Shown here piece by piece: positions 16,578-19,484 of a stretch of DNA of 39,898 nt (within the stretch, counting starts at the first letter, position 1; every line of letters starts with the position of its first letter). The position numbers and the translations under genes are program-made. The stretch comes from Ruminiclostridium sp. (GTDB lineage: Bacteria; Bacillota; Clostridia; Oscillospirales; Ruminococcaceae). The notes under the pieces are model-generated. The model had not been told where the DNA came from. It saw nothing but the letters and a program-made list of their open reading frames with translations, and made no database searches. Location of the stretch: the NCBI GenBank assembly GCA_017635675.1, contig JAGBLA010000138.1, forward strand, positions 1 to 39,898, written 5' to 3'.

Positions 16578-16613
16578 ACGGCAGACCTGCTTAGGCGGGT
16601 CTGCCGTTTTTTT
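16578..16613 (+). terminator. Rho-independent terminator after tyrS
   Basis: A perfect 10-bp stem (16578-16587 with 16598-16607) is followed by seven T residues. It ends the long rightward transcript that begins upstream of the LCP-like gene. Confidence 0.92.
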
Positions 16614-16641: not shown

Positions 16642-16670
16642 TTGACTTTTAATACTAAATGTAGTATAAT
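16642..16670 (+). promoter_or_regulatory. Sigma-A promoter of the nucleotidase-zeta gene
   Basis: TTGACT at 16642-16647 and TATAAT at 16665-16670 are 17 bases apart. The spacer contains the inverted repeat ATACTA-aatg-TAGTAT (16652-16667). Transcription would start near 16677. Confidence 0.88.
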
Positions 16671-16703: not shown

Positions 16704-16732
16704 ATCGTATTTTTTTAGAAGGAGAAGACTAA

Positions 16733-19411
16733 ATGAGATCTGTAAAAAGATTTTTCGCGGCACTCACTGCAGGCGCAGTGACAGTCAGCGCGTCGGTGTT
16801 CACGGCACAGGCTGATCAAGAGGGCAAAAGCGACGATATCGTTATACTGTACACGAACGACGTTCACTGCGGCGTTGACGACAATATCGGATATGACGGC
16901 TTGAAGCTCTACAAGAGAGAAATGGAGACGCAGTATGAACACGTCATACTCGTTGACGCGGGTGACGCTATACAGGGCGCTCCGATAGGGTCTTTCTCAA
17001 AGGGAGCTTACATAACCGAGCTTATGAATGCGGTAGGCTATGACGCCGCGGCAGTAGGCAACCACGAGTTCGATTACGGCATGAAGGAGCTTATGGTGCG
17101 CGCCGAGGAGCTCAACTGCGGCTACATAAGCGCGAATTTTTACAGCAAGGAAACGGGTGAGCTGCTGTTTGACCCGTATAAGATCATTGAGGCGGGAGAC
17201 AAGAAGATAGCCTTTGTCGGAGCCACGACCCCCGAGACGCTTTTCGCCTCGACACCGGTGTATTTCCAGAATGACAAGGGCGAGTTCATATACGGCTTCG
17301 GTGAGGAAGGAGATATTTATGAGCTGCTCCAGACCGCTGTTGACAATGCGAGAGGAGAGGGCGCGGACTATGTAATTATCGTCGGACACCTCGGTGAGAG
17401 CAGCGTTACAAAAGGCTGGAGCGCTCCCGAGATCGCTGCGGAGCTTACAGGCGTAGATGTCATCATCGACGGACACTCCCATGAAACTACTTCGGGCATG
17501 AAGGTGGCTTCCAAGGACGGAAAGGACACCGTCATCACACAGACAGGCACAAAGCTTGCCAATATCGGAAAGCTCGTTATCACCTCTGACGGCAAGATAA
17601 CCACCGGACTTGTTGACAGCGTTCCCGCCCCCACAGAGGATATGGGGCTTGCCGAGGACAGCTGGACAGAGCCCGACGGCAGAGATGGCAGATTCGTTGA
17701 CGAGGAAGTCAACTTAAAGCTTGTGAGCATATACGATGAGCTCGGCAGCACACTCGACCAGATCATCGGGCACACCGATTTTGAGCTTGCGGACAGCGAC
17801 CCTGTCACAGGCAGCCGCAGAGTAAGGAGCGGCGAGACAAACCTCGGCGACCTTTGCGCCGACGCGTTCAGAAATGTCCTCGGCGCCGAGATAGGCGTTG
17901 CAAACGGCGGCGGTCTGAGATCATCCATTCCTTCCGGGGAAATGACCTACAGCAGCCTTATAAAGGTAATGCCCAACTCAAACTCGACCGTTGTGGCAGA
18001 GATCACGGGTCAGCAGTTCCTCGACCTGCTTGAAAAGGGAGTAAACGCTTACCCCGAGGAGAGCGGCTCGTTCATTCATGTATCGGGCGCGACCTATATG
18101 ATAGCCGAGGATGTGGAAAGCTCCGTTGAGCTGAACAGCTACGGTGAGTATATCGGAGTCAACGGAGAGTACAGAGTAAGAAATGTCATGGTGAACGGCG
18201 AACCTCTCGACCTTGACAGAAAATATCTCGTAGGCGGCGTAGATTACCTTTTCAAGAACGCTGTCAAGAAGTATTTCATCGGCGGCAAGTGCAAGATAGT
18301 AAAAAATGACGTAATGCCCGATACCGAAATACTTATCAAGTATATAAAGGAAGAGCTTGGCGGAGTTATTCCCGATGAATACAGCGACCCATACGGTCAG
18401 GGAAGAATAGTCGTCACCACCGCAGCAGGCACCAACGCGCTTCCCGAGGGCGTTGTGCCTGTCACATGGGAGCCCTCGCCCGAGGATCTTATCATACGGA
18501 CAGATGAGGCAAGAGAGCTTTATGACCGCATAAAGGCAGGGGACTACCCGCCTGCCGAGGAACTCAGGAACACAGATACAGTTAAGGGCATAGACGCGCT
18601 TTCCGCTTACTATATCGGCATTTACGGCATAACAGCGGAAATAGATACTCCCGAAAGAGAACAGCTCAGAGAAGATGTCAAGAGACAGTTCCTCTCAACA
18701 GGCTCCGCGAGAACAGCGTCGATCGACGAGGCTACAGGAAAGCACAATTACGTTTATGACGGTGAGCTGGAAAGAGGCTATCTGGCAGAGCTTGTTATAG
18801 GACTTCCCGCGGCAGGCAAATCCACGCTTGTGAGCGACCCTGACAGCGAGGCTATGAAAGCGTTCATTCTCGACTCCGATGTGGTCAAGACCCTGCTCCC
18901 CGAGTTCATTGAGTCCCACGGCTGCGCGGCGGACGCTGTTCATAAGGAGAGCTCCAACATAAACGCGTCGATCATTAAGGAATTCACCGAAGGCAGCATG
19001 AAGGGCGTCAATGTTGTTATCCCGATCATAGGCGACGACTTTGACAAGATGATGCGCAAGTACATCGATCCGTTTGAGGAAGCGGGCTACAACATAAAGG
19101 TCAAGTTCGTTGAGGCAGACATTGACGCGAGCATGGCAAGAAACCTCGCCAGAGAGCTTGACACCGGAAGAATAATCAGCAGCGACGTCGTGTTCAGCTA
19201 CGGCACCAAGCCGCTGGAGACATATCAGAAGATAAGGTACATGACCAACTCCTTCGGCGAGTATTACGGACTTACGGCGCTCTCCACCGACAGCGATGCG
19301 GCTGCGGAGACCTCGGAGAACCCCGCAACGGGCGTACAGGAACCCATGTTCATCTTCATGGCAGTTTCTCTCGCGGGTATTGCGGCATCAATGAGAACAA
19401 AGAAAAAGTAA
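16733..19411 (+). CDS. Secreted 5'-nucleotidase fused to a zeta-toxin-like kinase domain, sortase-anchored
   Basis: The 892-residue protein begins with a signal peptide cut after Ala27 (VFTAQA-DQ). A metallophosphatase domain follows (about 35-300) with YTNDVHCG, VDAGDAIQG, VGNHEFDYG and IDGHSHE, then a 5'-nucleotidase C-terminal domain (about 330-540) with VANGGGLRSSIPSG. This pair hydrolyses nucleotides or UDP-sugars outside the cell. A linker leads to a P-loop domain (about 585-845) with Walker A GLPAAGKST at 690-698, LDSDVVK at 713-719, VHKESSNI and MARNLARELDTGR, in the order found in zeta toxins, which phosphorylate UDP-N-acetylglucosamine. The end has a sortase-like NPATG at 863-867, a hydrophobic segment and RTKKK. 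AAGGAG lies eight bases before the ATG. No epsilon-type antitoxin is adjacent. The gene uses AGA for Arg more than its neighbours. Confidence 0.88.
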   Translation: MRSVKRFFAALTAGAVTVSASVFTAQADQEGKSDDIVILYTNDVHCGVDDNIGYDGLKLYKREMETQYEHVILVDAGDAIQGAPIGSFSKGAYITELMNAVGYDAAAVGNHEFDYGMKELMVRAEELNCGYISANFYSKETGELLFDPYKIIEAGDKKIAFVGATTPETLFASTPVYFQNDKGEFIYGFGEEGDIYELLQTAVDNARGEGADYVIIVGHLGESSVTKGWSAPEIAAELTGVDVIIDGHSHETTSGMKVASKDGKDTVITQTGTKLANIGKLVITSDGKITTGLVDSVPAPTEDMGLAEDSWTEPDGRDGRFVDEEVNLKLVSIYDELGSTLDQIIGHTDFELADSDPVTGSRRVRSGETNLGDLCADAFRNVLGAEIGVANGGGLRSSIPSGEMTYSSLIKVMPNSNSTVVAEITGQQFLDLLEKGVNAYPEESGSFIHVSGATYMIAEDVESSVELNSYGEYIGVNGEYRVRNVMVNGEPLDLDRKYLVGGVDYLFKNAVKKYFIGGKCKIVKNDVMPDTEILIKYIKEELGGVIPDEYSDPYGQGRIVVTTAAGTNALPEGVVPVTWEPSPEDLIIRTDEARELYDRIKAGDYPPAEELRNTDTVKGIDALSAYYIGIYGITAEIDTPEREQLREDVKRQFLSTGSARTASIDEATGKHNYVYDGELERGYLAELVIGLPAAGKSTLVSDPDSEAMKAFILDSDVVKTLLPEFIESHGCAADAVHKESSNINASIIKEFTEGSMKGVNVVIPIIGDDFDKMMRKYIDPFEEAGYNIKVKFVEADIDASMARNLARELDTGRIISSDVVFSYGTKPLETYQKIRYMTNSFGEYYGLTALSTDSDAAAETSENPATGVQEPMFIFMAVSLAGIAASMRTKKK

Positions 19412-19426
19412 GCAAAACAAAAAAAC

Positions 19427-19484
19427 GGAGATATGTCCGCCCGCGCCGTTCACGGCAGGGGAGAGGACATATCTCCTTTTTGTT
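19427..19484. terminator. Bidirectional terminator between the nucleotidase gene and typA
   Basis: A 12-bp perfect stem (19427-19438 with 19465-19476) encloses a smaller GCCG/CGGC hairpin. An A-run lies to the left and TTTTTGTTTG to the right, so it can serve both convergent genes. Confidence 0.88.

Follow-up and report, generated by a model that had tools for sequence, protein, structure and literature searches.

The window, a stretch of 39,898 nucleotides from Ruminiclostridium sp. (contig JAGBLA010000138.1 of assembly GCA_017635675.1), encodes a protein of 892 aa in which a secreted nucleotidase is followed by a zeta-like kinase module and a wall-sorting signal (Table 1). Zeta-like kinases are known as intracellular toxins or parts of phage and conjugative proteins, and are expected inside cells. 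Judging from their sequences, the window protein, a homologous fusion from a second genome and three lipoproteins of another bacterial family form a small extracytoplasmic branch of these kinases, with two styles of anchoring. In the window protein the substrate pockets are changed in both halves, kinase and nucleotidase.

A preliminary description, made from the letters of the window, had reported the fusion and proposed several roles for it: the observation is confirmed, the interpretation partly supported. Neither the fold nor the surface enzyme is new, but their combination and its place are without description in the literature searched: a keyword search of the open-licence literature found no wall-anchored or lipoprotein zeta-like kinase, and no fusion of such a kinase to a 5'-nucleotidase. 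Zeta-toxin-like kinases do occur in polyvalent proteins of phages and conjugative elements, and the words “signal peptide” and “sortase” are absent from the main text of the report on these proteins (PMC5512222).

The gene and its locus

Table 1. Features of the 892-aa gene and its surroundings (positions in the window).
Feature	Position	Strand	Basis
Intrinsic-terminator-like hairpin 3' of the upstream TyrRS gene	16578..16607	+	13 pairs then T run
Sigma-70-like promoter TTGACT-17-TATAAT	16642..16670	+	11/12 consensus positions; consensus match only
Ribosome-binding site AGAAGGAG	16717..16724	+	8 nt 5' of ATG
ORF, 892 aa: secreted nucleotidase, zeta-like kinase, wall-sorting signal	16733..19411	+	ORF translation, Pfam
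Signal peptide, residues 1-27, inferred cleavage after TAQA	16733..16813	+	Hydrophobic peak 1.65 at 9-23
Metallophosphatase domain, residues 38-251	16844..17485	+	Pfam Metallophos above cut-off
5'-nucleotidase C-terminal domain, residues 359-509	17807..18259	+	Pfam 5_nucleotid_C above cut-off
MPNSNS (413-418) replacing the usual P-F/Y-x-N base-stacking motif	17969..17986	+	Alignment
AVKK (510-513) replacing GGDG; Lys512 at the ribose-binding Asp	18260..18271	+	Alignment
Zeta-like kinase module with helical N-terminal part, residues 574-846, starting VVPVTWEPS	18452..19270	+	
Walker A GLPAAGKST, residues 690-698	18800..18826	+	
P-x-x-G motif PIIG, residues 764-767 (EGTG in zeta)	19022..19033	+	Alignment
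R807 and R813 (zeta R158 and R171)	19151..19171	+	Alignment
Sortase signal: NPATG (863-867), hydrophobic stretch, RTKKK	19319..19408	+	Mean hydropathy of stretch 2.11
Terminator-like hairpin downstream of the ORF	19457..19479	+	

The gene lies 167 bp from the upstream gene, which encodes tyrosyl-tRNA synthetase, and 82 bp from the downstream one, which encodes a TypA-like GTPase (TypA by reading of its translation). The neighbouring genes that were read name neither a pathway nor a ligand, and PADLOC gave no defence-system match. No epsilon-type antitoxin is adjacent, the two gaps leaving no space for it.

The host assembly is a draft of 223 contigs with 7.03% contamination, which would favour an assembly chimaera of two genes, the error that the preliminary description had itself envisaged. 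The GC content, however, is uniform (0.52-0.53 across both halves of the gene and the whole window), and a second fusion, of 887 aa and 67% identity, displays the same domain order throughout in another genome (L009:4255-6918, contig JAIKZF010000038.1, “Ruminiclostridium sp. isolate RUI500”). The presence of the same fusion in a second genome indicates that it is not an assembly join, and we give the chimaera practically no credit.

By a Pfam Zeta_toxin scan and reading of the translations, the domain of the 892-aa protein is the only one of zeta type in the host genome. Four other matches to this model, two of them barely above the cut-off, were discarded as not zeta on their translations: L005 is an FtsE-type ABC protein, and L002-L004, on the minus strand, are FtsY-, Ffh- and PilT-like.

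Signals for export and wall anchoring

The surface signals claimed beforehand are all there: signal peptide, NPATG, hydrophobic stretch and basic tail. In a scan of the window ORFs for sorting tails the 892-aa protein was the sole match, apart from one LPESA match judged to be due to chance; the second fusion carries the sorting motif NPNTG. Motifs of the NPXTG type are described as signals accepted by class B sortases (PMC11987632). That the host possesses a sortase for NPxTG, for which the preliminary description had advised a search, is plausible: three adjacent class-B-like sortase genes were found in its genome (L055, G000:C140). Their scores with TIGR03064, the class B sortase model, range from 112 to 134 bits, all below its cut-off of 153.75, and two of the three are above the cut-off of Pfam Sortase. 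From these signals we infer that the 892-aa protein would be exported, then linked to the wall by a class B sortase.

Several nucleotidase relatives without the kinase module also end with NPxTG (e.g. L013-L016, L030, L031), which places the module between an older nucleotidase and the sorting signal of the latter, within the spacer that separates them. Of the three clustered sortases, one combines a signal like that of lipoproteins with a spacer rich in Thr.

A nucleotidase with an altered nucleoside pocket

The motifs of the nucleotidase had been read as complete. Metallophos and 5_nucleotid_C are above their cut-offs and the metal ligands are intact. The nearest solved structure is UshA (1ush, 1.6e-34). 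When the fusions are aligned with 23 module-less loci (the locus L012, identical with the window, is not a row, nor are L036-L038, fragments of genes already among the rows), all eight metal or catalytic positions checked are intact in both fusions, and the phosphate residues Arg365 and Arg396 are retained in both, as is Asn391. Domain order, metal ligands and phosphate arginines are common to the window protein and the 5'-nucleotidases of the UshA/CD73 type.

In CD73, stacking on the base falls to Phe417 and Phe500, binding of the ribose to Asn390 and Asp506, and binding of the phosphate to Arg354 and Arg395 (PMC8677862); we set the equivalences from the motifs and from the alignment with UshA. 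The position of Asp506 is occupied by Lys in three of three rows, i.e. the two fusions and a remnant of a fusion in genome G007 (see below), and in these rows only. Among the 23 module-less rows, four are gapped there and the 19 with a letter have Asp (16), Gly (one, L021) or Ser (two, L033 and L034). At the position of Phe417 the fusions and the remnant have Asn, Asn and Ser (Asn415 in the window), and the module-less rows Phe or Tyr (19), Asn (one, L032) or His (three). As both residues are also lost in some module-less rows, the fusion does not stand quite alone in either loss. The window protein is therefore of the UshA/CD73 type by its two domains and its metal ligands, but the nucleoside-pocket residues (Phe417, Asp506) are lost, the ribose Asp being a Lys and the base-stacking Phe an Asn, and it carries an extra kinase; with the NCBIfam model for cell-surface Nt5e it stays far under the cut-offs.

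At four columns of the metal site, three other nucleotidase relatives (L022, L023 and L024) carry Asp, Gln, Asn and Leu; these are possibly inactive enzymes, or misaligned. Same-order nucleotidases with other C-terminal additions were also seen (L017, L019, L021, L032), the end of L019 being LysM-like by eye; domains may have been exchanged in the spacer that precedes the sorting signal.

A zeta-like kinase with a changed substrate pocket

Pfam Zeta_toxin matches residues 687-819 at 36.3 bits, for a cut-off of 22.3. A profile search of PDB sequences backs this assignment, and a confident structure model of the module has zeta and PezT as best solved fold matches (PF06414; PDB 1gvn, 3q8x, 2p5t). 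Other P-loop families—AAA_33, polynucleotide kinase and AvrRxo1—all score below zeta; the zeta-like domain of the preliminary description is upheld, and the different P-loop family that it had admitted as a possible objection seems less likely. Phmmer with the single module sequence gave no match in PDB, a three-row module profile gave no credible match, and the full-length fold computed from a two-row alignment had a pLDDT of 32.3.

Equivalences with zeta residues were taken from the printed profile alignment, with numbering counted by hand, and from a 34-row alignment named A8. The catalytic residues K46, D67, R158 and R171 of zeta correspond to K696, D716, R807 and R813 and are kept in both fusions. 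The module thus has what characterises the zeta family: a score above the Zeta_toxin cut-off, the zeta fold and the catalytic residues.

Its substrate pocket is another matter. The contacts of zeta to UDP-GlcNAc are Asp67, Thr118 (beta-phosphate), Arg120 (phosphates), Thr128 (uracil) and Glu100 (ribose) (PMC3062530). Only Asp67 is kept in the window module; the other four are replaced, E100 by A745, T118 by I766, R120 by D768 and T128 by Y777. Neither UDP-GlcNAc nor an ordinary nucleoside monophosphate is a probable ligand.

The preliminary description had linked the protein to UDP-sugars. Such a surface system, in which the kinase would phosphorylate sugars of the UDP-GlcNAc type and the UshA-like half would hydrolyse them, draws on the likeness of the nucleotidase to UshA and on the zeta structures found as best fold matches; nevertheless it conflicts with the four replaced contacts as well as with the lost nucleoside-pocket residues, and we consider it improbable. 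Since four of the five contacts differ, a surface UDP-GlcNAc kinase was dropped as the leading reading. Compared with zeta toxin and PezT, the window protein shares family and fold, but has export and wall-sorting signals and no room for epsilon beside it, differs at these contacts and is fused to a phosphatase.

Rarity of the fusion and apparent constraint on the module

The genus survey found the fusion in two of 71 genomes. A relative was present in one further genome of the genus (G1233), as a distant stand-alone protein without nucleotidase fusion. In the class survey the module occurred in one of 391 genomes, the window's own; the order survey, with a broader profile, gave four of 394 (the window's genome, one of the lipoprotein genomes, and two others, one with a stand-alone relative of 316 aa and one with an open frame of 2443 aa), and the phylum survey two of 398, the second being a 2462-aa open frame. 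With so few carriers at each of these levels, the fusion is rare. The stand-alone protein of G1233 (L054:1237-2205) is of a zeta-like type with a P-x-x-G motif and has no evident signal peptide; its neighbours are MBOAT-like and alginate-acetylation-like proteins, named by reading their translations.

In G007:C60 (L008:1441-3074), pieces of the nucleotidase run straight into the end of the module and NPATG, the kinase core being missing and the frames broken. This arrangement suggests a former fusion, which decay or a loss in assembly may have reduced to its present state.

The modules of the two fusions are 71% identical; the dN/dS of the module is 0.147 and that of the nucleotidase 0.137 (Nei-Gojobori, own script), values to be taken as rough because dS between the fusions, 1.4-1.7, is near saturation; the closest lipoprotein pair gives 0.178 at a dS of 0.21. 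The kinase module looks to be under purifying selection. These data also bear on the possibility that it is a functionless passenger from a mobile element, on its way to decay. Its rarity and the core missing from G007:C60 would agree with this; however a module about as constrained as the nucleotidase half, within the roughness of the values, and common to lipoproteins of another family is hardly what such a passenger would leave, and we hold this explanation to be rather improbable too.

Lipoprotein relatives

A stand-alone lipoprotein form of the module exists in three of the 22 genomes of another genus (G691, G1198, G1199), which belongs to another family of the same order; when 250 genomes of this family were sampled, G691 was the single match. 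These proteins consist of a signal peptide (LLSGC, LLCGC), a Ser-rich spacer, then the whole module of 273 residues with the same start, VVPVTWEPS, and score 31.7-36.4 bits with Pfam Zeta_toxin. Found in three genomes, this form indicates that the extracytoplasmic use of the module is not a one-off. In both trees the five extracytoplasmic sequences group together with 100/100 support; one tree sets the window protein closer to the lipoproteins than L009 is (99/79, not starred), while the other leaves the order open.

The three lipoproteins have a Gln at the position of R171 and HFEG in place of HKES, and the branch outside the cell may thus be drifting towards binding; at least some of its members may be non-catalytic. 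Extending this to the fusions, the zeta-like domain would catalyse nothing but would hold a nucleotide, or a ligand akin to one, outside the cell, and either pass it to the phosphatase or fix it to the wall. The altered lipoproteins are in line with such a role, and so is the uncertain supply of ATP at the cell surface. On the other hand, both fusions retain the Walker A and the equivalents of D67, R158 and R171, not all of which a pure binder needs, and the module evolves at a dN/dS of 0.147. We regard a pure binding module as unlikely, though less so than the other rival readings; that it captures nucleotides for the nucleotidase, as the preliminary description had proposed, is a conceivable role.

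In G1199, a lipoprotein gene with an HD-like motif (L051:2321-2929) lies directly downstream of the zeta-like lipoprotein gene; its product bears a weak likeness to Pfam HD-CE (E 0.055, below cut-off). At the other two lipoprotein loci, the ORFs that were read include no such gene.

Phage relatives and probable origin of the module

In viral contigs the pattern D[ST]D..K..[LI]PEY was found at 71 loci, 64 of them with a Walker A just upstream. A regular expression classed these 64 as P-x-x-G (33), D-G-T (26) or other (five); L086, “other” for the expression, is P-x-x-G by eye. Sixty were long enough and 40 were left after de-duplication, of which 32 entered A8, the eight omitted being of the D-G-T class. 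All 34 rows of A8 match Zeta_toxin at E up to 0.01. Two positions before T118 they have Pro (24 rows) or Asp (10 rows). The T118 position itself is a Thr in nine of the ten D-type rows (Val in L126) and in one of the 24 P-type rows (L093); 23 of the latter have a hydrophobic residue there, as does the window module with its PIIG (I766). A branch with 100/99 support splits the P-x-x-G and D-G-T classes of phage zeta-like domains (L057:1-7435 to L127), in a tree from which L122 was omitted. By motif and alignment, the window module belongs to the P-x-x-G subfamily, whose members come mostly from contigs that their collection classes as phage.

Among three long viral proteins scanned, one has MuF_C (L111), one LPD38 (L086) and one neither; L111 is also the viral row nearest to the module by tree path, and PHROG 16619, “minor head protein”, is a match among the phage relatives. 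Pfam found no MuF or LPD domain in the 892-aa protein. Scans of viral contigs by protein or alignment query found no relative, and the window module gave two weak matches against plasmids; the relative L011, used in its place, matches 71 phage and 82 plasmid records. As the P-x-x-G kinases are mostly in viral contigs, the window module would most simply descend from a mobile lineage, the forks near its sister being open in both trees. It shares the P-x-x-G subfamily with the kinases of phage polyvalent proteins; the phage and conjugative kinases sit in multidomain proteins of the element, whereas the window module is carried by an exported protein of the bacterium itself.

A possible function at the cell surface

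Our tentative preference, to which we grant a little under an even chance, goes to a kinase and a phosphatase displayed together on the wall, both with changed pockets; the kinase would then catalyse outside the cell. The class B sortase would link the secreted two-enzyme protein to the wall, where the kinase module would take NTP from lysed neighbours and phosphorylate a hydroxyl of an extracellular ligand; the fused phosphatase would dephosphorylate this ligand or a related one, and the pair would work as a couple and not as a toxin. P-x-x-G zeta-like kinases of phage multidomain proteins are the most likely source of the module, which was then most likely inserted into the spacer between a pre-existing nucleotidase and its sorting signal. 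In favour of this reading are the recurrence of the fusion in a second genome, the low dN/dS of both halves, the catalytic residues kept in both fusions, the lipoprotein form, the three sortases and the altered pockets. Against it count the lipoproteins with Gln at R171 and HFEG, the presence of the fusion in two of 71 genomes, its one broken copy, the neighbouring genes that point to no pathway or ligand, and the ribose Asp lost in three of 19 module-less rows as well. More doubtful, though worth retaining, is a broader proposal: a cell-surface zeta-fold branch, issued from the phage polyvalent-protein lineage, would phosphorylate a glycan of the wall or a released metabolite at the expense of nucleotides outside the cell, and the fused phosphatase would reverse or process the product; the wall-anchored chain would then be a bacterial ecto-kinase/ecto-phosphatase.

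The preliminary description had also suggested an action on neighbours, for which we found nothing in favour at this locus. Zeta kinases are toxic inside cells (PMC3062530), and a module delivered into neighbouring cells on contact could in principle exploit this; but Pfam finds no delivery domain in the 892 aa, the gaps of 167 bp upstream and 82 bp downstream leave little space for an immunity gene, and for the lipoprotein form a tether to the membrane is expected. Such an effector seems very improbable.

For an exported and apparently constrained branch there are two alternatives: its members transfer phosphate from nucleotides outside the cell, or the fold has been put to a new use, in binding. 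Moreover, as the P-x-x-G pocket is without the UDP-GlcNAc contacts, an exported member could help to reveal the substrate of the phage proteins.

Two further enzymes invite comparison. AvrRxo1 is a zeta-fold NAD 3'-kinase and an injected effector of plant pathogens (PMC5087710). Its setting as an injected protein differs from that of the wall-anchored window protein. Pnkp, the bacterial polynucleotide kinase-phosphatase, is presumably not exported, and we take its phosphatase family and its domain order to be unlike those of the window protein; its fold match to the module is shorter, covering 151 residues.
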